Part shown: positions 42,387 to 64,000 of the stretch, in pieces
Numbering within the stretch: the stretch's first letter is position 1
Layout of the letters: each line of letters starts with the position of its first letter
Source of the DNA: Aeromicrobium sp. Leaf245
GTDB taxonomy: Bacteria > Actinomycetota > Actinomycetes > Propionibacteriales > Nocardioidaceae
Reading direction: 5' to 3'
Assembly: GCF_942548115.1 (NCBI RefSeq)
Contig: NZ_OW824151.1
Location: forward strand, 2,356,001-2,420,000
Length of the DNA stretch: 64,000 bases
Translations under genes and position numbers: made by a program
The notes under the pieces: generated by a model
Databases searched by the model: none
The model's input: only the letters and a program-made list of their open reading frames with translations
Told to the model about the DNA's origin: nothing

Positions 42387-43199
42387 CTAGGTACGCACCG
42401 GCGCGACGCTCTGACGCTCGCGCTCCCGCTCGCGGACCACCGCGCGTCGGTTCTCGTCGAACCCCTCGATGCGTGCCACGAGCTCCGTGGCGGTCTTCTG
42501 CGAGATGGTCTCGGCCTCGAGGCGGGCGAGCCAGGTGCGGAAGCCCGATCCGCGGACGATGGCCACGCCGTCGACGACCTCGTCGTCGCGCACCGACGAC
42601 TGCGCGGCACCCCACACGACCACGACCGGCGTCACCGTCAGGGCCTTGCGAGGGGCGCTGTGCCGACCGTGGCTGCGCTGGGTGACGGTGTTGACCAGAG
42701 CCTGACCTCGCTTCGCTGCCCGACGTGCTGTGAAGGCAAAGATCGCACGCTTCTCGTCGTCGAGACCGCTGCACCACTTGGAGTCGATCACGACAATGCC
42801 GCCGCGACGGGTGACGACGAGGTGGTCGATGTCACCGTTCTCGAGCGCGATGCTGTCGACGGAGCGCCAGATGAGTCCCTGACGCTTCGCGGCCTGCAGC
42901 TCGGTGCTCGTGTTGTCCTCGCCCCACGCACCGCGGAGCTGGTGGATGGCGCCGCCCTCGTGGGTCAAGAAGGCGGTGTGGACGATCCAGCAGAACACGA
43001 CGAAGGTCGCCGGCAGGAGCGCCCATAGGGCTGTCGTCGTGTAGTCGTGCGACGGCAGCAAGCCCAGCAGCGCAAGCTCGAGTGCCACGACCCCGGCGAA
43101 GATCGCCGCCACCGTGGCCACCGCGCGCTTGTTCCGCATGAGCCATCTCCGCAACAGCTGGCGGTACTGCTTCCTCGGGTACGACGTGTTCTTCCCCAT
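42387..43199 (-). CDS. Membrane-anchored NERD-domain protein
   Basis: 270 residues. Basic N-terminus, then two membrane helices ('AVATVAAIFAGVVALELALLG' and 'ALLPATFVVFCWIVHTAFLT'). A nuclease-related domain (NERD) follows at residues 95-200: 'GAWGEDNTSTELQ' and 'GDIDHLVVTRRGGIVVIDSKW', with the Asp-Asp/Lys set seen in the restriction-endonuclease-like fold. The C-terminal 30 residues are Arg/Glu-rich helix. NERD proteins are thought to act on nucleic acids. It stands alone between the YtxH gene and recD, and is the second NERD protein of the window. Confidence 0.82.
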   Translation of the reverse strand: MGKNTSYPRKQYRQLLRRWLMRNKRAVATVAAIFAGVVALELALLGLLPSHDYTTTALWALLPATFVVFCWIVHTAFLTHEGGAIHQLRGAWGEDNTSTELQAAKRQGLIWRSVDSIALENGDIDHLVVTRRGGIVVIDSKWCSGLDDEKRAIFAFTARRAAKRGQALVNTVTQRSHGRHSAPRKALTVTPVVVVWGAAQSSVRDDEVVDGVAIVRGSGFRTWLARLEAETISQKTATELVARIEGFDENRRAVVRERERERQSVAPVRT

Positions 43200-54391: not shown

Positions 54392-55039
54392 TCAGAGCGT
54401 CTTCTTCTCGAACGTCAGGTGCGTGACGCCGCTCGGCGACGCCACGACCTCCACGTCGTAGTCGTCCTCGAGTCCCTCGAGGCCGCTCCACAGGTGCGCG
54501 CCGCGGCCGAGCACGATCGGCACCTGCACCACGTGCATGTGGTCGACGAGTCGCGCGGCGAGAAACTGCTGGACCACGTCGGCACCGCCACCGATCCTGA
54601 CGTCGAGGTTGCCGGCCGCCTCCTTCGCAAGAGCGAGTGACTGGACCGCAGATGCGTCGACGAAGTGAAACGTCGTCCCACCGTCCATCTCGATCAAGGC
54701 GCGAGGCCGGTGCGTGAGCACGTAGACCGGCGTGTGGAAGGGCGGGTTGTCGCCCCACCACCCACGCCAGTCCGCGTCGTCCTGCCAGCCGGGCGGCCCG
54801 AACTTGTTGGCTCCCATGATCTCCGCGCCGAAACCGTGCTCATGCTGCTGCGCGAAGTCGTCGTCGATGCCTGTGGTCCCGGACTCGCGCCCCATCAGCG
54901 CCGCCCCGAACCGCGTGGCGATCATCCACGCGTGGAGCCGCTGACTGGCATGCCCCATCGGCGACTCGAGCGACTGCGGCTCCCCCGCGGCGAACCCGTC
55001 GAGGGAGATGGACAGGTTGTGGACGCGGACGCGGGTCAT
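54392..55039 (-). CDS. Dihydrofolate reductase-family (RibD C-terminal) protein
   Basis: 215 residues. 'VRVHNLSISLDGFAAGEPQSLE' opens the fold; 'LTHRPRALIEMDGGTTFHFVD', 'IGGGADVVQQFLAARLVDHMHVVQVPIVLGRGAHLW' (described in part) and the 'VVASPSGVTHLTF' ending match the RibD C-terminal/DHFR-like family. It likely uses NADPH to reduce a small molecule; it is not the essential folate reductase. It starts eight bases before the end of the S1/coiled-coil gene on the same strand. Confidence 0.88.
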   Translation of the reverse strand: MTRVRVHNLSISLDGFAAGEPQSLESPMGHASQRLHAWMIATRFGAALMGRESGTTGIDDDFAQQHEHGFGAEIMGANKFGPPGWQDDADWRGWWGDNPPFHTPVYVLTHRPRALIEMDGGTTFHFVDASAVQSLALAKEAAGNLDVRIGGGADVVQQFLAARLVDHMHVVQVPIVLGRGAHLWSGLEGLEDDYDVEVVASPSGVTHLTFEKKTL

Positions 55040-55046
55040 GAACCGA

Positions 55047-56849
55047 TCATGGCCGCATCTCGTCGTGGAGCGCCACCCTCGACAGCTGCACCTGGGTGCC
55101 CCGTCGCCAGAAGTGCAGACGCCGCGCACTCGGGGTGTGCTGCTGCAGCGCCACTCGCCAGCAGTACTCCCCCGGATGCCGCTCCACCCACGGGTCGTCA
55201 CCGCCGGGACCCATCCTCAGACGATGCATGTCGCGGCCGGGCATCGAGTCGGCGAGTCCGGTGAGCACGTGGACCACGACCTCAGCGACCTTCGATCGCG
55301 CCACCCCGTCGACCGACGCCAGGGAGGCGAGGAAGTCGGGCCCGAGCGTCCAGTCGTCCGGCAGCGGACGCTGCGCCTTCTCGGCAGCCGGTATCGCCTC
55401 GACCCACGCGAGGTACACGTCGTGACGGAACGCCGACTCCGCATCGATGAAGCGCTCCTCGCTGCTGGCCTCGCCCCGAGCCACGGACCTGGAACGCTGC
55501 AGTTTCTTGCGGAGGTCACGAGTCTCCGTCCTCTTGCGCTCCACCTCCCCCACCGCCCGGTCCCGCTCGTGCTCGAGCCGTTGAAGACGGGAGACGAGCT
55601 GAGCCATCTCTTGCCTCAGGGCGTCCACTTGCCGCTGGGCATGAGCACGCGCTGCCCGTTCCAGGTGCAGGTCCTTCCGAGCGGACGAGGCAGCCACCGG
55701 CTCGTCGTCGGGCGACGTCGACGGCGGACGGGTGACATCGACGGCGCCTCGCCGCCCAGGATCGAGATCGAGAGGGGACGGTCGAGCAGGTGTGGGCACG
55801 TCGGCCGCCTCTGCGATGGCCCGTGGCGGTGTGCCTGCCGGTTCGAGCGCGACGACCGGCTCGACGTCGACCTGCGGTGGCGACCAGGGTGCGTCCGGTT
55901 CCGGCCGAGCTGCAGGCGCGGAATCCTCGACCGCGAGCCACGCAGGACCGCCCGGAAGCAGCGACGGAACCTCCCGCACCGGTTCGTCGTCGTCGACGTC
56001 GACGAGCGAGAGGAGCCACCTTTCGGCGCGAACCACGTGCGCCACCACCACCTCGCCGACGGTCATCAGGTCGCGCGGGTCATCGAGCGGGTTGCCCGTG
56101 ATGCCGCTGACCCCGATCTCGACGCGCATGCCCGGGTACGGCTCGACGACGGCGCGGTCGCGCCCCACGTCAGCGACACGGACCAGCACTGCGTCTCCAG
56201 GCGCGTAGTGCTCGAGCGCTTCGGTGGCCGGGCGCACCTGGTTGCGCACGTCGAGCAGACCGTCGGCCGTGACCCACTCGCCCGTGACCTCCTGACCAGG
56301 TCGCACGACCCGTTCGATCGGAACCCCAGGGACTGCAAGCTCCTCGCGAAGCGCTGCTCGGCCGAAGTCGCCCTCGACGATGCCTCGACCAGCCAGCACC
56401 CCGACGACACGTCCCGTGACGGTTCTGCGCTGCACGGCCCGCCGTTCGAGCAGACCGGCCTCGAGCGCAGCCTGCATGGCGTCGGCCTCGAGCAGAGCCT
56501 CGATCCGTGCGCCCTGGTCCGGGCCGAAGCACAGGTAGAGCCGTGACGAGCGAGGTCGCGACACCCACGTGAGATCGGTGGAGTAGACCCGCGCCGCGTC
56601 ACCGTAGACCTGTGTCTCGGGCGGCAACGACGAGCTCAGCGCCCAGGTGACCTCCCCCGTGGGCACGACGTGGACCTCGGCGTAGTCACCGACGCCGGCA
56701 GCGACCTGTTCGGCATCGATCCACGGCTGGTCGCCACGTCCGACCCCGTGGGACACGACCACCACAGGATGGGTGCGACGCGCATCGAGCAGGTGGGAAG
56801 CGAGGTGCTGCGCAGCCTCACGCGTCTTGACGAACGTCACCGCACCCAC
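55047..56849 (-). CDS. S1/OB-fold and coiled-coil protein of unknown function
   Basis: 600 residues from GTG 56849, with AGGGGAG six bases upstream. Residues 1-130 form an unrecognised alpha/beta domain ('VVVSHGVGRGDQPWIDAEQV', 'YAEVHVVPTGEVTWALSSSL', 'TQVYGDAARVY'). An S1-like OB fold follows at 200-290 ('GDAVLVRVADVGRDRAVVE', 'TVGEVVVAHVV'). A Pro/Glu linker precedes a long coiled coil at 395-470, then a compact C-terminal domain ('FRHDVYLAWVEAIPAAEKAQ', 'VERHPGEYCWRVALQ'). The S1 fold suggests RNA binding. Context with NERD-helicase genes hints at a nucleic-acid process. No catalytic motif is visible. The longer frame to 56969 overlaps the DUF4352 gene and is rejected. Confidence 0.65.
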   Translation of the reverse strand: MGAVTFVKTREAAQHLASHLLDARRTHPVVVVSHGVGRGDQPWIDAEQVAAGVGDYAEVHVVPTGEVTWALSSSLPPETQVYGDAARVYSTDLTWVSRPRSSRLYLCFGPDQGARIEALLEADAMQAALEAGLLERRAVQRRTVTGRVVGVLAGRGIVEGDFGRAALREELAVPGVPIERVVRPGQEVTGEWVTADGLLDVRNQVRPATEALEHYAPGDAVLVRVADVGRDRAVVEPYPGMRVEIGVSGITGNPLDDPRDLMTVGEVVVAHVVRAERWLLSLVDVDDDEPVREVPSLLPGGPAWLAVEDSAPAARPEPDAPWSPPQVDVEPVVALEPAGTPPRAIAEAADVPTPARPSPLDLDPGRRGAVDVTRPPSTSPDDEPVAASSARKDLHLERAARAHAQRQVDALRQEMAQLVSRLQRLEHERDRAVGEVERKRTETRDLRKKLQRSRSVARGEASSEERFIDAESAFRHDVYLAWVEAIPAAEKAQRPLPDDWTLGPDFLASLASVDGVARSKVAEVVVHVLTGLADSMPGRDMHRLRMGPGGDDPWVERHPGEYCWRVALQQHTPSARRLHFWRRGTQVQLSRVALHDEMRP

Positions 56850-56922
56850 GGCTGCTCCCCTCGGTCGTTCCGGCCACCCTGCCACCGAGAGGTGACAAGG
56901 GTGGCCGGAACGGTTGACTCGG

Positions 56923-57558
56923 TCAGAGTCCGAGGTCGACGTACGCTTCACCGCGACCGAAGAGGTCACTCACCTCGAGCTGCCCACCCTCGACTGCGGC
57001 CTCAGGGACGTCGAACACGAGGATCCCGGTCTTCGGGACGTCGGGCTGCATGTCCTCGAAGATCAAGGTCTCGCCGTCGTCACCGCTCGCCGCGATGGTG
57101 CCGTCGCTGTCCGTCGAGTACTTCTTGCCGTTGGATCCCACGAAGACCGCCGCGGAGTCGAGGAAGGTCTTCGTCTCGTCCTTCGTGTTCTCGATCGTGA
57201 TCTCGACGATGACGTAGGTGCCGCCGGCCTCCTCGGAGAAGAACTCGCTACCGACGCTGCCCTGCGTCTTTGCGCTGTTGACCGTGTAGGTCGTGCCCTC
57301 GAGCTCGACCGACTCGCCGATGGCCACGGGGTCGGCCTGCGTCACCTTCGCGCTGTCGTCCGACCCGCCGGACCCGCCACCGCGGGTGGCTCCTTCCTCA
57401 CCGCCGCTGCCGAGCGCCGCGGCCACGATGATCACGCCGACGACGATCGCAGCGATCCAGCGCTTCTTCTTGTACCAGGGCCGCGAGGCCTTCGCGTAGG
57501 CCTTCGCCGCCTTGGCTGCGGCCTTCGGGTTCTGCTGCTCGTGCTGAGTCTCGGACAT
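56923..57558 (-). CDS. DUF4352 domain-containing membrane protein
   Basis: 211 residues. A cytosolic Ala/Lys-rich N-terminus ('PKAAAKAAKAYAKASRPWYKKKRWI'-like) leads to one membrane helix 'IAAIVVGVIIVAAALGS', a Gly/Ser linker and an extracytoplasmic DUF4352 domain ('TYTVNSAKTQGSVGSEF', 'YVIVEITIENTKDETKTF', 'GKKYSTDSDGT'). Such proteins are thought to be surface beta-sandwich (telomeric repeat-binding factor 2-like) folds of unknown role. The gene runs in the direction of the S1/coiled-coil gene, 73 bases before it. Confidence 0.87.
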   Translation of the reverse strand: MSETQHEQQNPKAAAKAAKAYAKASRPWYKKKRWIAAIVVGVIIVAAALGSGGEEGATRGGGSGGSDDSAKVTQADPVAIGESVELEGTTYTVNSAKTQGSVGSEFFSEEAGGTYVIVEITIENTKDETKTFLDSAAVFVGSNGKKYSTDSDGTIAASGDDGETLIFEDMQPDVPKTGILVFDVPEAAVEGGQLEVSDLFGRGEAYVDLGL

Positions 57559-57706
57559 GGTCGATCCCCCGTCTTCGGTGATGTGGAGTCGTCACCGTAG
57601 GGCGGATCCGCCTGTGCTTTCAGCGATTCCTGTGGCTCGAAAGGACTAGCCGAACGGGCTGGATCGGATGGTCAAGACGCACATACGTGGCGTGCCACTC
57701 GGTCCA

Positions 57707-57724
57707 CCGATGACGGCTCATCGG
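57707..57724 (-). terminator. Weak hairpin beyond the 244-residue gene
   Basis: CCGATG-ACGGCT-CATCGG, six-base perfect arms, 58 bases past the stop of the minus-strand gene at 57782. Short stem, so termination is only possible. Confidence 0.4.
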
Positions 57725-57781
57725 AATCATCGAGACCTTCCGGTGGATGCGGAGTTGGATAGGGATCGACGAGCATTCGCC

Positions 57782-58516
57782 TCATCGACCGCCCAGACGT
57801 TTCGCGCCTTGTCTCTTCGGCTTACTGGGCTCCGGACTGTCCTTCTCGACCTGCTTCTCCAGCGCTGCACCCTTGAAGGCCGCCTCGACCAGGAAGGTTC
57901 GGAGCTCAGACTTCTGCACGCTGGCGCCCAGATTCAGTCCGGCCTTCTTGAGCGCCAGTGCGATCTCGCCGTCGAGCGAGAACTGGGACTCGCGGATGAT
58001 CTCGATCCGGATGGTCCGTGCACCGTTGACCAGCACCGCGTCGCATGCTGACTCGAAGCCGGGCTCACCCGGATAGCGCAAGGGCCGGGGATCCACGGGC
58101 GAGCTTCCGGTGCCACGCTGCTCGTACGCAACCTTCCGCTGAACGGTCGAGCTGCGACGTAGCCCGAAGTTCAACTTCTTGATCGGGACGTTCAAGGACG
58201 ACACTGACGTCTCGGTCCTCTCCTCGCGCGCGACGACTTCCGCTGCACCCAGGCTGTTCAGGACTCGCAGAGCTTCCTGCAACTTGTCCCGAGCCACCTG
58301 CTCGTCGTAGTCAGCGAAGGCGACCAGTACGTCCTTGCGGACGGGATGGCTCACGTAGACGACGTTCGCCAAGGCAGTGCCGTCCTGAATCTCGTACTGC
58401 GCCGATCGATCGATGGGAAGCAGCTCCAGACCGAGGTTGCGAGCCTTGCGGGGCAAGGTGTCTCCGAAGACGACCATCCGTTGGTCCTTCAAAGCGGCAC
58501 GCAGATCTTCATTCAT
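57782..58516 (-). CDS. Hypothetical protein of the NERD-helicase cluster
   Basis: 244 residues from ATG 58516 (GAGGGA six bases upstream); ATG 58537, in TGATG overlap with the helicase stop, is the alternative. I do not recognise it. Sequence is a mixed alpha/beta protein: 'QRMVVFGDTLPRKARNLGLELLPID' near the start, 'LANVVYVSHPVRKDVLVAFADYDEQ' and 'AACDAVLVNGARTIRIEIIRES'-type strands, then 'EIALALKKAGLNLGASVQKSELRTFLVEAAFKG' (partly quoted) and a basic tail. No signal peptide or membrane helix. The GC content is a little lower than average. It is the last gene of the minus-strand cluster from XRE to here. Confidence 0.6.
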   Translation of the reverse strand: MNEDLRAALKDQRMVVFGDTLPRKARNLGLELLPIDRSAQYEIQDGTALANVVYVSHPVRKDVLVAFADYDEQVARDKLQEALRVLNSLGAAEVVAREERTETSVSSLNVPIKKLNFGLRRSSTVQRKVAYEQRGTGSSPVDPRPLRYPGEPGFESACDAVLVNGARTIRIEIIRESQFSLDGEIALALKKAGLNLGASVQKSELRTFLVEAAFKGAALEKQVEKDSPEPSKPKRQGAKRLGGR

Positions 58517-58536
58517 GGCTCGTCCCTCGTTCGGCA

Positions 58537-60198
58537 TCACGGGTTTCCCTTGATCTTCTTCAGCACCGCCGGTCCCCCGACCGCCTCGATGTGCTCCGGG
58601 TCCCCGCACACGACGAGCAGGTCGCGGGCGCGGGACAGGCCGACGTAGAGCCGCTCCATGGCGCGCTCACGGTCGGGCTGCTCGTTGAGCGCGAGCACGA
58701 CGGCGGGGCGCTCGAGTCCCTTGAAGCCCATGACGTGCCCGTAGAACACCTGGTCCTTGTCCCAGAAGGAGTCCCAGTAGGCCTGCCAGCCGTCCCCCTG
58801 CCGTGCCTTCTGCTCGGGGTGGCGCGGGCCGGTGGCGACGAGCGCGAGATCCGAGGGCTGCCAGCCCTCCTCGAGCAGCTGCTCGACGACGTCGTCGGCG
58901 TGCTCGATGGCCTGCTCCCAGTCACACGGGACGAACCGCACCTCGGGACCGTCGTGCTGCGAGATGCGCATCTTGTTGGGCGCCATGGACGAGAACGTCG
59001 ACGAGATCTGCTTGGTGTTGCGCAGGTTCTGGTCGAGCACGAGAGTCACGAGGTCGGCGGGCGGACCGCCGAAGCGGGAGAACACCCGCTGGCCCTCGTC
59101 GGAGAAGACGTAGAGCCCGTCGTCCTCGTACTTCAGCGCCTCCATGACCACCGGCCACCAGAGGTCGGCGAAATCCTGCGCCTCATCGATCACGATCGCG
59201 TCGTAGAGGTCCCCCGTCGCCTGCTTGCCGGCCAGGTCGAGCATGATCTCCGGCAGCTCGACCTCCCAGAAGTTCGAGTCGTCGTCGCTTCCCTCGGGCG
59301 CGCCCCACTCCTGACCGATGCCGTGGAAGGTGCCGACGTAGGCGGGCTGCTCGCGGTGGTCGAAGGTGGCCACGCGCCGCTGCATCCACTGGGACAGTCC
59401 CCGGGAGTAGCAGATGAGGGCGACGCGCTTGCCCTGCCGCGCAAGACGACGCGCCTGCTCCACCGCCAGCCACGTCTTGCCGCTGCCGGCTCCCCCGCGC
59501 ACCTCCACGCGCGTGATGAGGCTCGTGACGTCGAGGATCCGACCCTGCTCGGCGCTGAGCCGCTCCACGACGTCGTCGCGCTCGGCGATCCGCGCCTCGA
59601 TGGAGAGCTGACCCTCGCGCTGCGGGAGGAAGCGCCCACTGAGCGCCGCGTGGATGGCGAGGGCGTCCTCCGCGTTCGTCGCGCGCCTGGTGGAGGCCTG
59701 CACGTCGAGGAGCGTTCGCAACCGGTTGCCGATGTCGGCGAGGTCGTTGGCGTCGATGACCATCGAGCGTTCGCACTCGGGGTGGCTGAAGCGGGCGTCG
59801 ACCTCGCTCGACGGGAGCACGATGGCGTGGGCCCAGCGGACGCGGGAGCGCCCGGCCCACGCCGACGACGACTCCACCCAGTCCTGCAGGACGTATTTGT
59901 TGCTCATCGCCTGCTCGACCGGGCGGATCTTCTTCGGCGCGGGGTTCCAGTCCTGCCACCACGTCTCACCGTCGTGCCAGACACGGTTGCCCTTCACCTC
60001 CAGCACAACCACGCCGTGCCCGTCGAGGACGACGGCGAAGTCGAGCTCGTGGTCGTTGCCGCGGACCGTGAAGCGCTGGTTGGCGATGATGAGGTCGCGC
60101 TCCCCCAGCTGCGCGACGAGGGCGGCCCACACCCGCCGTTCCGAAGCGTTGACGAACGACGGCTCGGACGGCCAGGTCATGGGGGAAGTCGACGGCAT
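58537..60198 (-). CDS. NERD-domain UvrD/PcrA-type helicase
   Basis: 553 residues from ATG 60198 (AAAGGA seven bases upstream; GTG/ATG at 60228 also possible). Residues 10-125 carry a NERD nuclease-like domain ('NDHELDFAVVLDGHGVVVLEVKGNRVW', partly quoted, with the Asp/Glu-x-Lys set). A SF1 helicase follows: Walker A 'RGGAGSGKTWLAVEQA' near 235, 'DAIVIDEAQDFADLWW' near 338, 'VLDQNLRNTKQI', 'VMGFKGLERPAVVLAL' and 'MERLYVGLSRARDLLVV'. It is likely an ATP-driven DNA or RNA unwinder coupled to a nuclease-type domain. It is tightly packed with the 170-residue gene (17 bases overlap region upstream) and the 244-residue gene. Such fusions recur in defence islands. Confidence 0.85.
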   Translation of the reverse strand: MPSTSPMTWPSEPSFVNASERRVWAALVAQLGERDLIIANQRFTVRGNDHELDFAVVLDGHGVVVLEVKGNRVWHDGETWWQDWNPAPKKIRPVEQAMSNKYVLQDWVESSSAWAGRSRVRWAHAIVLPSSEVDARFSHPECERSMVIDANDLADIGNRLRTLLDVQASTRRATNAEDALAIHAALSGRFLPQREGQLSIEARIAERDDVVERLSAEQGRILDVTSLITRVEVRGGAGSGKTWLAVEQARRLARQGKRVALICYSRGLSQWMQRRVATFDHREQPAYVGTFHGIGQEWGAPEGSDDDSNFWEVELPEIMLDLAGKQATGDLYDAIVIDEAQDFADLWWPVVMEALKYEDDGLYVFSDEGQRVFSRFGGPPADLVTLVLDQNLRNTKQISSTFSSMAPNKMRISQHDGPEVRFVPCDWEQAIEHADDVVEQLLEEGWQPSDLALVATGPRHPEQKARQGDGWQAYWDSFWDKDQVFYGHVMGFKGLERPAVVLALNEQPDRERAMERLYVGLSRARDLLVVCGDPEHIEAVGGPAVLKKIKGNP

Positions 60199-60211
60199 GG
60201 GTCGGATCCTT

Positions 60212-60724
60212 TCAGCGTCCTGGGTCATCGTCCAGATCCTCCGGCACGTCGATCCACCGGAACCGACGCAGGTCCTTGGCGTCGAGCACGACGTCGCTCA
60301 TCACTCGAGCACCCCACAGGTCGCGGAGCACCTGCACGACGCCGTCGACACCGACCTCCGCCCACACCAGGGCGACGTCGAGGTGCCAGTTGGGCGACGC
60401 GGTCGGCTCGTCCGGGTCGGGGCACTTCCACCCCATGGCGAGGAGGCGTACCTCCTCCGCGGGACTCCAATGGTGCTCCTCTGGCAGGAAGGCGTTCGAG
60501 ACGACCTCGCACCGCAGCATCGAGGAGCTCCACCGGCAGAACTGGGCGTACTTCGGCGTGTGCGGGTGGCCGAAGTCGTCGAGCTCACCCTCGTCACGGT
60601 GGAGCACGAAGGTCCCGTCGTCGGGCAGACGACGCACCGTGGCTGCGACGGATGCGGCGAAAGACATCCACGGGATGGTCCGGGGTCGGAGGTCGTTCAC
60701 GCGGTCGTGCTCGACGCGGGTCAC
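60212..60724 (-). CDS. Hypothetical protein of the NERD-helicase cluster
   Basis: 170 residues from GTG 60724, in a GTGA four-base overlap with the TY-Chap-like gene, so translation is coupled. I do not recognise it. Visible features are 'TVRRLPDDGTFVLHRD', an aromatic 'YAQFCRWSSSMLRCEVVSNAF' stretch and 'EEVRLLAMGWKCPDPDEPTAS', then 'WHLDVALVWAEVGVDGVVQVLRDLW' in part and an acidic tail. This resembles the TY-Chap-type small domains (YbjN-like) by shape: strand, aromatic core, 'LLAMGW' helix. Soluble, no catalytic motif. It likely partners the gene before it. Confidence 0.6.
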   Translation of the reverse strand: MTRVEHDRVNDLRPRTIPWMSFAASVAATVRRLPDDGTFVLHRDEGELDDFGHPHTPKYAQFCRWSSSMLRCEVVSNAFLPEEHHWSPAEEVRLLAMGWKCPDPDEPTASPNWHLDVALVWAEVGVDGVVQVLRDLWGARVMSDVVLDAKDLRRFRWIDVPEDLDDDPGR

Positions 60725-61929
60725 GGCGTGTCCTCGTCGATCGCGGCCGGAACCTCGCCGCGGACGACCTCGATCGCCGTCACGACCTTGCGCCAGCGTC
60801 GCCAGTCGTTGAGGTGGACCCTCTGCATCGGCCCCTCGGCAGCTCTCGTGGCAGCCAGTGCTCTCGAGCAGGCCCGCCGCGCCTCGGCCCGCCACGCCGC
60901 CGACTGCTTCTCGTCGGTGAGAGTGACCCGCAGGACCTCGGCAAGAGCCTCGGCCTGCATGCGGCCGGCGTCGGCCGCGATCACCGACAGCAACGGGTCC
61001 GGGACGTGGTCGGCCTCGCTCAGGGTCTCAGGGAGCCGACGCTTCTTGAGACCCTCGTCGAGGTCGACGACGCGGGTGCGCAGGAACAGCAGGCGGGAGA
61101 CGGCGGCGTGCAGGTGCTCGGCCACGAGTGGCGACGCATCGACCCCGATGACGGCGAAGAGAGTGTCCCGCTGGAGGAAGAAGCGCACGTGGCGATGGCG
61201 CCGGCTCAGCCGGTCGATCTCGCGGTGAGCCTTCTTGAACCGTACGCGCGTGGCGAGCACGGTGACGACCTCGACGAGATGGTGTCCACGCACCCTGACC
61301 ACGACCGGGCCACCGACGCCGCGCATGCGTATCGATCCGTCGGAGCCCACCTTGAGCGGCGCCTCGACCTCCTCCTGCATGACGGCCTCGACCAGTCGCT
61401 GCAGCTCCTCGACCGTGGCCGTGTGGGCGACGCGCGGGACCACGGCCGACGGGGGTTGCTGCGGATCGTCCTGGGAGGCGGGCAGCAGGTGTGCCTCGAG
61501 CTCTCCCTGGGTCTCGACGTCGAGGAAGGCCGGGGACACGACGCCCCAGAGGTCGTGGAGGACGAAGGCGACCGCGTGGGCCAGCCGATCGACCTCTCGA
61601 CGGCCGACAGCGAGGCACGGCTCCCCCGTCGGGTCGATCAGGAACCCGAGGTGGTCGAGCTGCCGCACGCCATGGCGATCTAGTCGGTACTGCGGGGGCA
61701 GGACGACGCTCCCGAAGCCCGGCTCGGCACCTGCTGCGAGCAGCTCGAGGTACAGGGTCGTCCGGTTCACGCTCACGCGCAGGGTGGGCGCCTCGGGGTC
61801 GTCCACGCCGGGGTCGAGGTGGAGCACGGCGTCCTCGGCGTCTGTCAGCCACTCCGCCAGCCGCAGCCGGAAGTCCATCCAGGCACCGTCGACCCACTGG
61901 TCGACCACCCGCTCCTCGAAGCCACTCAT
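60721..61929 (-). CDS. TY-Chap (YbjN/type III chaperone-like) double-domain protein
   Basis: 402 residues from ATG 61929 (GGAGG eight bases upstream). Two similar domains can be read: residues 40-130 ('TLYLELLAAGAEPGFGSVVLP', 'GVRQLDHLGFLIDP') and residues 190-290 ('VVVRVRGHHLVEVVTVLATRV', 'DTLFAVIGVDASPLVAEHL'). Both match the strand-helix order of TY-Chap domains, which are related to YbjN and type III secretion chaperones and found in bacterial conflict systems. A helical, Arg-rich C-terminus follows. It is not an enzyme by any motif seen; a binding or scaffold role is likely. First gene of the helicase operon after the XRE gene. Confidence 0.6.
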   Translation of the reverse strand: MSGFEERVVDQWVDGAWMDFRLRLAEWLTDAEDAVLHLDPGVDDPEAPTLRVSVNRTTLYLELLAAGAEPGFGSVVLPPQYRLDRHGVRQLDHLGFLIDPTGEPCLAVGRREVDRLAHAVAFVLHDLWGVVSPAFLDVETQGELEAHLLPASQDDPQQPPSAVVPRVAHTATVEELQRLVEAVMQEEVEAPLKVGSDGSIRMRGVGGPVVVRVRGHHLVEVVTVLATRVRFKKAHREIDRLSRRHRHVRFFLQRDTLFAVIGVDASPLVAEHLHAAVSRLLFLRTRVVDLDEGLKKRRLPETLSEADHVPDPLLSVIAADAGRMQAEALAEVLRVTLTDEKQSAAWRAEARRACSRALAATRAAEGPMQRVHLNDWRRWRKVVTAIEVVRGEVPAAIDEDTP

Positions 61930-62001
61930 CGCCACCACCTCCGTCGCGTCGGACCCGCGCCGACGTTGTCGACGATAGGTGCGACCAGCGACACAATCAC
62001 G

Positions 62002-62014
62002 ATGCAGAGAGCAT
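62002..62014. promoter_or_regulatory. ATGC-N5-GCAT dyad before TY-Chap gene
   Basis: ATGC-AGAGA-GCAT in the 95-base gap between the XRE gene and the TY-Chap gene. It shares TGCA-type half-sites with the larger repeat at 62536-62564, so the XRE protein may bind both. Confidence 0.4.
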
Positions 62015-62024
62015 AGACGAGTGG

Positions 62025-62522
62025 TCAGGCCTCGCGCGAGTGCTCCTCCAGCATGCGCTTCAGCACGAGCTTCTGCACCTCGCCGAGAGCGTCGAGACGC
62101 TCCTCCGGCGGCAGCTCCTCGATGAGGTCGACGGCCTGGCCCACGAGGTCCTCACGGCCGGAACGAGGAGGCACTCGTCGTGGCGGTGGACCGCTGGCCA
62201 TGGGCAGGTCGGACGTCGGTTCGAGGGCCGCGACCACTGGCGACTCTCCCGACAGTAGGGCGGCCTGAGCAGCCAGCGAACGCTGGAACGACGGGGAACT
62301 TATGTCGTCCGGCGGGAGCGCAGCCTCTAAGGCCATCGGCTCGATCCCGAGCGCCTCCGCCAGCTGCGCCGCGGCCTTGCGCGACGGCTTGCGCAGGCCC
62401 GTCTCCAGCTGTGACACGTAGGGGTAGGACAACCCCGACCTCTCGGCCAGCTGGGACCGCGACATGCCTTGCCGCTTGCGGAACTCCGCCAGCACTCGTC
62501 CGAACGAGGAATCCGTCGACAT
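62025..62522 (-). CDS. XRE-family transcriptional regulator
   Basis: 165 residues. The helix-turn-helix is at residues 7-62: 'LAEFRKRQGMSRSQLAERSG' then 'LSYPYVSQLETGLRKPSRK' (recognition helix) and 'AAQLAEALGIEP'. The C-terminal 100 residues are unstructured then helical ('EDLVGQAVDLIEELPPEERLDAL'), a possible dimer or partner site. AAGGAG lies seven bases before ATG. It heads the minus-strand cluster and diverges from the VWA gene across the inverted repeat at 62536-62564, which it probably binds. Confidence 0.9.
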   Translation of the reverse strand: MSTDSSFGRVLAEFRKRQGMSRSQLAERSGLSYPYVSQLETGLRKPSRKAAAQLAEALGIEPMALEAALPPDDISSPSFQRSLAAQAALLSGESPVVAALEPTSDLPMASGPPPRRVPPRSGREDLVGQAVDLIEELPPEERLDALGEVQKLVLKRMLEEHSREA

Positions 62523-62535
62523 CTCGATGCTCCTT

Positions 62536-62564
62536 GCATAATCTGTCTGCAGTCTGCATTATGC
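62536..62564. promoter_or_regulatory. XRE operator-like inverted repeat in divergent promoter
   Basis: GCATAAT (62536-62542) and ATTATGC (62558-62564) are perfect seven-base arms around a 15-base spacer with a CTGCAG centre. The region also holds TTGCAT (62535-62540) and CATTAT (62557-62562), which fit -35 and -10 boxes for the VWA gene with 16 bases between them. Hence binding would block both directions. Confidence 0.7.
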
Positions 62565-62596
62565 TCATTGCACACCCTACCTGAGAGGAGATGATC

Positions 62597-63886
62597 ATGA
62601 AGCTCTCGACACACCTGAGCCGCGATCGCTTCGACTGGATGCAGGACTCCCTGCGCCGTCGCGACCACGCCGTCATGCTCGTCCGCGTCGCCGGCACCCT
62701 GCCCGAGGGATACGCCGTCCGCCCCACCGACCGCGCCGCGTCGCACCTGGTGGTGGTGCTCGACCGCAGCGGTTCCATGTCCGGCGGACGTCTCGAGCAC
62801 GCCAAGCGCGCGCTGGTCGACGTGGTCGGACGGCTCTCCCCCGACGACTCGTTCGGGCTCGTCACCTTCGACAACCGGGTCGAGGTGGTGGTGCCTGCCG
62901 GACCGGTCACCGACCCCGCCGCTGTCATCCGGCACATCGAAGGGGTGCGCGCCGGCGGCAGCACCGACCTCGGCGCCGGGCTGGTGCGGGGGCTGGAGGA
63001 GGCACGCCGGATCGACGTCGGTGCGGGTGTGCGGGTGCTGCTGGTCAGCGACGGCCACGCCAACGTCGGCGTCACGGACCCCGAGGCGCTCGGGGGGCGC
63101 GTCGGGGCCATGCGGGCACGCGGCATCACGACGTCCACGCTCGGCGTGGGGCTCGGGTACGACGAGACGCTGCTCTCGACCATCGCCCGGGCCGGTGCCG
63201 GCAACGAGCACTTCGCCGCCGAGGCCGACGCCGCAGCAGCAGCGATCGGCGAGGAGTGCGGGGAGCTGGCCGCCCAGCGGTTCCTGTCGGTCCGCCTCAC
63301 CATCGCGGCTGCGTCCGGCATCCGCGGCCTCGACGTGGTCAACGACCTTCCCGTGGTGCCGGTGCCCGGTGGGATCCAGGTCGACCTCGGCAGCATGCGG
63401 GTCGACGAGACCCGCTCGCTCGTGGTCGAGTGCGCACCGCACCCGGCCACCCGGCCGGGGCGGCGGAAGATCGGGAAGCTTCGCGTCGACTACGTGCTCG
63501 CGGACGACCTGAGCGACCAGCACACGTCCACCACGGTGTGGACGCACGTGAGCCGGCCCGACGAGCGCGAGGCGGGCTCGGACCGCCAGGTGCTGGGCGA
63601 GTGGTACGTGCAGCGCGTGCTGCGGCGCCGGCGCAAGGCGCTGGCCCTGCTCGCCCGCGGCGAGGACGTCCGCGCGGCTCGCGAGTTCGCGAAGCTGGCG
63701 ACGCTGGCGCACTCGGCGGCGGCGAAGGTGCCGGCGGCGTTCCGCGCCGAGCTGCTCCGCGAGGCCCAGGAGGCCGAGCGGATGGCCGAGCCCGAGCTGT
63801 TCCTGGCGATGGCGCCGGACGACCGGCAGTTCATCAGCAAGAACATGACGGCCGATGGTGGTCGCCGTTCCCGGAGGCGCTCGTGA
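62597..63886 (+). CDS. VWA-domain protein with VIT-like C-terminus
   Basis: 429 residues from ATG 62597 (AGGAG seven bases upstream). A von Willebrand A domain at residues 50-220 has the MIDAS 'VVLDRSGSMSGGRLE' (Asp56, Ser58, Ser60), 'GGSTDLGAGLVRGL' (Thr) and 'VLLVSDGHANVGV' (Asp). After it come a beta-rich segment ('LFVDLGSMRVDETRSLVVE'-type) and a helical C-terminus with 'RRRRKALALLARGEDVRAAREF'. No signal peptide, so cytosolic. VWA proteins bind partner proteins through a metal ion and occur with MoxR or kinase ATPases. Its stop overlaps the next start (GTGA). Confidence 0.9.
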   Translation: MKLSTHLSRDRFDWMQDSLRRRDHAVMLVRVAGTLPEGYAVRPTDRAASHLVVVLDRSGSMSGGRLEHAKRALVDVVGRLSPDDSFGLVTFDNRVEVVVPAGPVTDPAAVIRHIEGVRAGGSTDLGAGLVRGLEEARRIDVGAGVRVLLVSDGHANVGVTDPEALGGRVGAMRARGITTSTLGVGLGYDETLLSTIARAGAGNEHFAAEADAAAAAIGEECGELAAQRFLSVRLTIAAASGIRGLDVVNDLPVVPVPGGIQVDLGSMRVDETRSLVVECAPHPATRPGRRKIGKLRVDYVLADDLSDQHTSTTVWTHVSRPDEREAGSDRQVLGEWYVQRVLRRRRKALALLARGEDVRAAREFAKLATLAHSAAAKVPAAFRAELLREAQEAERMAEPELFLAMAPDDRQFISKNMTADGGRRSRRRS

Positions 63887-64000
63887 GCGCCGAGCAGACC
63901 GGCCCCGAGGGGCAGGAGGAGAGCCGCATGAGGCGAAAGGTGATCGCCGTGCTCGTCACGACGCTGGTGGTGGCACTCGTGGCCACCGGAACGGTGCTGT
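63883..64000 (+). CDS. Membrane protein, N-terminal fragment (cut by window edge)
   Basis: Begins at GTG 63883 in a GTGA overlap with the VWA stop; GGAGG precedes it. The visible 39 residues are 'SAEQTGPEGQEESRMRRKVIA' in part, then a membrane helix 'VLVTTLVVALVATGTVL'. An ATG at 63928 is an alternative start. A single-span or signal-anchor protein coupled to the VWA gene; the rest is outside the window. Confidence 0.75.
   Translation, partial: MSAEQTGPEGQEESRMRRKVIAVLVTTLVVALVATGTVL

Follow-up and report, generated by a model that had tools for sequence, protein, structure and literature searches.

The window analyzed here, a 64,000-nucleotide stretch of Aeromicrobium sp. Leaf245 (contig NZ_OW824151.1, positions 2,356,001 to 2,420,000), is part of a 3.46-Mb single-contig genome and carries a divergent gene cluster built around an XRE-type regulator, TY-Chap proteins, a vWA-domain protein and a fusion of a NERD nuclease-like domain to an SF1 helicase. 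We see about an even chance that this locus is an anti-phage operon under a predicted shared repressor, with chaperone-like proteins licensing the NERD/SF1-helicase, and that it is a variant, lacking the ADP-ribosylglycohydrolase ARG, of the ARG-centered ADP-ribose conflict network predicted by Iyer et al. (2022, PMC9503650; drawn on here for parts of its text). The NERD-helicase would be its likely effector. An earlier, sequence-only reading of the window had described five tightly spaced minus-strand genes as a candidate undescribed system. All five frames were confirmed within 57782-62522, with a 95-base gap between the XRE and TY-Chap genes (taking the TY-Chap start at the ATG at 61929), a GTGA common to the TY-Chap gene and the 170-residue gene (60721/60724), and a TGATG (58537) common to the helicase gene and the fifth gene, here called U5. 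Pfam bore out the XRE, two-domain TY-Chap and NERD plus SF1 helicase assignments, and the 244-residue product of U5, which had been listed as unknown, has no match in Pfam, PADLOC or NCBIfam. The 170-residue protein, also listed as unknown, is in fact a TY-Chap3 protein. The five-gene boundary also moves: a 68-base spacer separates XRE from the divergent vWA gene, which is part of the same unit as XRE, TY-Chap and the helicase, and U5 is a rare, optional add-on. The core features are as follows.

62591..63886, plus strand: vWA-domain protein (PF00092, 2.3e-18)
62527..62565, no strand: conserved element in the XRE/vWA spacer, predicted from conservation to be a shared operator/promoter
62025..62522, minus strand: XRE-type regulator, helix-turn-helix (HTH) at residues 11-62 (Pfam HTH_3, 2.9e-14)
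60721..61929, minus strand: two-domain chaperone-like protein of 402 residues, TY-Chap3 + TY-Chap1 (PF22552, 1.5e-13; PF22551, 5.5e-16)
60212..60724, minus strand: second TY-Chap3 protein, 170 residues (PF22552, 3.5e-23)
58537..60228, minus strand: NERD nuclease-like + SF1 (UvrD-type) helicase fusion, 563 residues, predicted effector (NERD, 2.2e-7; UvrD, 4.3e-6)

The NERD-SF1 protein carries the nuclease D...ExK and Walker A/B motifs. The NERD core residues E45, D47, E61 and K63 (numbered from the start at 60180) are invariant in 23 helicase homologues, as are positions G232, G234, K235, T236, D332, E333, Q335 and D336 of the helicase, with S233 nearly so; given this invariance, both the nuclease and the helicase activities look intact. 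Its top PADLOC matches are RTasNERD-Hel (119 bits, residues 57-543) and C3a187 NERD+UvrD (80 bits). The vWA protein has a DxSxS metal-site sequence, read by eye. As for the TY-Chap proteins, 23 of 25 scanned against Pfam match TY-Chap1 and 18 match TY-Chap3.

Conservation and variation within the genus

The helicase is present in 14 of the 49 same-genus genomes searched, and seven of these 14 form a close clade with pairwise identities of 61-90% (own genome included in both counts). At all seven clade loci the vWA gene diverges from an arm composed of XRE, TY-Chap and the NERD/SF1-helicase, and XRE lies upstream of TY-Chap (7/7, counting the G403 TY-Chap, a 182-residue partial frame). Mean pairwise identity across the seven loci is 67% for the helicase, 59% for XRE, 55% for vWA and 32% for TY-Chap, the last figure taking in the partial frame of G403. 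TY-Chap is the most divergent part of the core, as expected of a component that would read the trigger; relaxed constraint may also account for its divergence.

The spacer between XRE and vWA (62523-62590) contains a GCATAATGC/GCAAGGAG element. Its full form, AGCATAATGC...GCAAGGAGCAT, is present in four of the seven same-genus loci (the window, G056, G063 and G088), a relaxed pattern having matched 4/7; in G403, G384 and G400, GCATAATGC is kept and the second half is degenerate, as read by eye. The spacer pattern has a single match in the whole of its own genome, and a reversed control pattern has none. With a strict pattern, the only matches were L006 and L097, both of them copies of the window's own locus, because the relatives differ in one base or in spacer length. 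A sigma-70 scan of the spacer region found no promoter consensus, so it is the conservation of the element that points to a predicted shared operator over divergent promoters. The regulator itself gives HTH matches only, with no Nudix or WYL match in Pfam.

Around this core, the modules vary. An N-formylglutamate amidohydrolase (FGase, PF05013) is found in 5/7 clade loci. The second TY-Chap3 (the window and two others), a 194-residue-type protein, and homologues of a 640-residue HEC-07-like protein (the window, G384 and G400) are each in 3/7. ARG (G088 by genome search, G403 by Pfam) and REase-ARP are each in 2/7, and U5 is in 1/7. An HNH protein is encoded at the G403 locus, a GIY-YIG match below cut-off is found at G384, and G063 carries a calcineurin-type phosphatase. 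In G088, the same XRE core has DSP, ARG and the amidohydrolase on its other arm, following vWA, and in G056 an ARG lies ~32 kb from the helicase. The sequence-only reading had looked to conservation of its five genes in other genomes: the XRE/TY-Chap/NERD-helicase core does recur elsewhere, but the full five-gene set including U5 was found in no other locus examined. Its view of the locus as a conflict-type module is supported, at the level of sequence, by the recurring core with variable modules, the fast-diverging TY-Chap, and the defense-type genes nearby (PglW-like and Helicase_II-like).

The amidohydrolase bears on whether the window locus may be partly decayed. Its frame, at window 64967-66097 (L097:12967-14097) and thus beyond the window end, runs into an in-frame stop after 50 codons; the homologues on the vWA arm in G088, G403, G384 and G400 are uninterrupted. 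ARG (PF03747) has no match in the whole window genome. Because of these two features, the locus could be partly decayed, which counts against the anti-phage reading. In its full form, decay would mean that a G088-like ancestor with ARG, phosphatase and amidohydrolase, such as still stand behind vWA there, had left in the window a remnant that no longer functions or is losing its function. We consider this unlikely: the window core genes are full-length open frames with conserved motifs, and the fetched stretch contains no ARG at 5/7 same-genus loci (one of them being G056, with its distant copy), so that ARG looks like an optional module in the clade.

Co-occurrence in wider samples and a predicted mechanism

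Beyond the genus, a six-frame profile scan covered the stretches around 29 family helicase loci (own excluded, and leaving out G004, G084 and G087, with weak or short helicase matches), all 39 non-family loci of the class sample and 80 named loci, as well as 20 control stretches taken from the same sets of genomes; some stretches end at contig ends. The named loci are the best 80 of 164 relatives and overlap the other sets, at least 11 of them recurring in the family or class sets (L098/L060, L124/L070, L115/L194, L116/L184, L117/L191, L123/L197, L125/L198, L144/L202, L145/L204, L146/L205 and L155/L206). ARG counts are from the ARG-domain model, whose family count agrees with Pfam coordinates; the other ARG profile may drift into phosphatase domains.

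In 100 family genomes (own included), TY-Chap3 is present in 33, the helicase in 33 and ARG in 36, the window genome not being among the 36. At the 29 family loci, TY-Chap is found at 20, on the helicase strand in 17 of these, and ARG at seven, all with TY-Chap; Nudix regulators and vWA are at four each, and ARPP-1 at three. The 39 class loci have Nudix regulators at seven, ARG at five, TY-Chap at three, vWA at two and ARPP-1 at one. Among the 80 named loci, ARG is at 21 (with ARPP-1 in 10 and a Nudix regulator in 11 of those), Nudix regulators at 13, ARPP-1 at 10, TY-Chap at seven and vWA at one. The control stretches gave 0/20 for every profile. Going by Pfam coordinates only, 14/29 family genomes have PF22552 no more than 10 kb from the helicase (~0.11 expected from copy numbers) and 7/29 have ARG within that distance (~0.09 expected); the expected values were calculated with genome sizes and PF22552/PF03747 copy numbers copied by hand, and the Pfam positions were likewise read by hand. 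Because the TY-Chap profile is broader than PF22552, 14/29 is the matched TY-Chap count. Pfam-confirmed representative neighbors are ARG+DSPc, ARPP-1, NUDIX+NrtR_WHD and REase-ARP/PDDEXK_13.

These counts bear on whether the helicase belongs to a unit at all. It might be an independent Nhi-like defense gene, with TY-Chap, vWA and XRE as mere defense-island neighbors that share no mechanism with it. Partnerless helicases are indeed common, and the top PADLOC matches are to other NERD-helicase models. Against this, order and orientation are fixed in 7/7 same-genus loci, start and stop codons overlap, and the TY-Chap gene keeps to the helicase strand in 17/20 linked family loci, and we regard independence as quite improbable.

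In the mechanism that we propose for an anti-phage operon, XRE would bind the spacer and keep both arms off until infection or protein modification relieved the repression. TY-Chap and vWA would recognize altered or foreign proteins, reading a trigger that is probably an infection-linked modification or misfolding of proteins, and would license the NERD-SF1 helicase, which as executor would unwind and cut nucleic acid. At loci that have them, ARG, phosphatases and FGase would undo the insult. For the first and last of these steps we draw on domain function and motifs, and for the middle step only on co-occurrence and divergence.

A bolder and rather doubtful proposal is that the chaperone/nuclease-helicase pair, and not an ADP-ribose hydrolase, forms the executing core of the whole network: TY-Chap and vWA would sense chemical damage done to host proteins and would directly switch the NERD-SF1 helicase onto nucleic acid, and ARG, phosphatase and amidohydrolase would be exchangeable de-modification modules. 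If true, this would be a principle of immunity by which the control of protein quality gives the license to destroy DNA or RNA. With vWA, XRE, the helicase and one or two TY-Chap proteins but no ADP-ribose enzyme, the window locus is small enough to test, and puts the question directly: do the chaperones act on the nuclease-helicase?

Several further points weigh against an anti-phage operon of this kind. The other seven same-genus helicases, 48-55% identical to that of the window, lack TY-Chap, XRE and vWA alike in the stretches examined, several of which are short, and neither TY-Chap nor ARG is in the stretch at 32/39 class loci and 54/80 named loci; the helicase can therefore also exist without this set. 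It was also genes from these very loci that supplied the profiles used for TY-Chap, vWA and ARG. In the parts of PMC9503650 used here, the chaperone label of TY-Chap is a fold prediction only. Viral contigs hold at least five distant helicases, none of them close, the best being 31% identical among the matches listed. A literature search, with most subscription journals outside it, found no assay of any member of the locus.

The partnerless helicases would also suit a stress or DNA-repair module, in which XRE-controlled chaperones and the nuclease-helicase clear damaged protein-DNA adducts and immunity has no part. The same helicase family occurs in many genomes without these partners, and Iyer et al., in the parts of their paper drawn on here, cite DR1245, a YbjN-like partner of DdrB. 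Conflict is the better fit to the patchy presence among same-genus genomes (14/49), to the variable nuclease-type neighbors (REase-ARP, HNH and the GIY-YIG match below cut-off) and to the fast divergence of TY-Chap, and we give the repair alternative only a slim chance.

An origin of the locus in a phage or plasmid was rejected, as no close match was among those listed from phage, viral-contig and plasmid searches. TY-Chap has no match in 50,697 phage records, and the helicase is in 39 plasmid records, every one below 60% identity.

Accessory genes and flanks

Four further genes adjoin the core, two of them beyond U5 on the helicase arm and one behind vWA.

57782..58537, minus strand: U5, 244/251 residues, rare accessory protein without a named family
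56923..57558, minus strand: DUF4352 protein (PF11611, 1.5e-18), membership uncertain
55047..56969, minus strand: 640-residue protein with HEC-07-like N-terminus and coiled coil (PADLOC HEC-07, 1.2e-13), probable accessory member
63883..64000, plus strand, start only in the window and continuing to 64467: 194-residue protein, its N-terminal segment hydrophobic as read by eye

By profile search, U5 is in 2/100 family genomes (own included), and in Klenkia (L130) the helicase is directly followed by a homologue. Of 7995 candidates scored, 417 proteins belong to the U5 family at E <= 0.01; its members P0001-P0121 are mostly of 214 residues and mainly actinobacterial-looking, 120 listed members have no precomputed Pfam domain, and the motif DPRPL is invariant in 53 aligned members. 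The DUF4352 protein has no match in the other six same-genus loci. In L244, the gene that directly follows the helicase encodes a protein 41% identical to the 640-residue protein, and a homologue is likewise placed in L245. The 194-residue protein has no Pfam match, and its homologues stand behind vWA in G063 and G088.

Beyond the window end, L097:14495-19999 (window 66495-71999) holds three adjoining plus-strand genes, encoding a UvrD-type helicase, a protein of 795 residues that matches HNH weakly, and a Helicase_II-like protein (PADLOC, 1.5e-32, partial at the stretch end); this run is possibly a second defense system beside the locus. Near the vWA arm in G063, L058:15774-17780 encodes a NERD + protein kinase that matches the first 610 positions of the PglW profile (7.5e-180). 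Additional NERD-domain matches lie in the window itself, at 42762-42935 on the minus strand (30.7 bits), and at G000:2784219, the third. In G011 (L095:7384-14092), a distant NERD-helicase, 28% identical, is flanked by a DrmE_C match below cut-off and a 1165-residue Helicase_C protein, and looks like a separate defense system. Finally, in five Blastococcus/Klenkia loci (L127, L130, L131, L133 and L135), the helicase is preceded by a member of a family of ~202-221 residues. Pfam gave no match for the single member scanned; the family is a possible stand-in for TY-Chap in these loci.

Known systems with similar parts

Several named defense systems share the helicase architecture. RTasNERD-Hel, the PADLOC model belonging to DRT, has the same protein architecture, but no reverse transcriptase domain was found in the nine window genes (54392-63886) or in four more scanned in L097 beside the 194-residue gene. 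The C3a187 NERD+UvrD model of PADLOC also shares the NERD and UvrD architecture, but is a candidate model with no partners described. Nhi joins a nuclease and an SF1 helicase in one protein; the window helicase reaches 18 bits only, over residues 240-273, and unlike Nhi has chaperone, vWA and regulator genes attached. For Gabija, GajB profiles reach no more than 38 bits, and no GajA is among the rows listed for seven window proteins (for the helicase, the best 25 of 30).

The closest relatives by parts are the ARG-centered systems, predicted by Iyer et al. to counter viral ADP-ribosylation (PMC9503650; the parts used here). These combine Nudix or WYL regulators, phosphatases, TY-Chap1-3, vWA and SseB chaperones, restriction-type nucleases sometimes with helicases, and ARPP; a Nudix or WYL sensor regulator is present in more than 42% of them and a coupled phosphatase in a little over 55%. 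The window locus shares the predicted peptide-binding chaperones (two TY-Chap proteins and vWA) and the optional nuclease/helicase module (NERD + SF1). Its relatives carry ARG, REase-ARP or a phosphatase (DSP in G088, the calcineurin type in G063), and elsewhere the helicase stands beside ARG+DSPc, ARPP-1 and Nudix-NrtR regulators. The designation of the locus as undescribed is too broad, since that paper's predicted systems already include parts of these kinds (TY-Chap, vWA, REase and helicase).

The window locus differs in having no ARG, and XRE in place of the Nudix/WYL regulator. A Nudix-regulator profile had no match in L097 (WYL was not searched in the neighbors), and a DSP profile and a calcineurin-type query were empty in the 20 kb of L097 (HD and HAD types were not searched). 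No ADP-ribosyltransferase or sirtuin was found among the window genes scanned, which are a part of the neighbors. Because ARG and any Nudix-regulator or phosphatase match are missing, we treat the locus as a variant of the same parts and not as a member. The literature search described above found no paper on TY-Chap domains besides PMC9503650, none joining TY-Chap to NERD helicases, and no experimental test of ARG-centered systems. In the main text of PMC9503650, "formylglutamate" and "NERD" have no occurrences, though its figures or supplements may draw the NERD helicase. By this term check, the parts that the locus and its relatives would add beyond that main text are the NERD-SF1 helicase effector and the N-formylglutamate amidohydrolase; beyond section 3.8 of the same paper, they would add the XRE regulator with its conserved shared element and the HEC-07-like protein.

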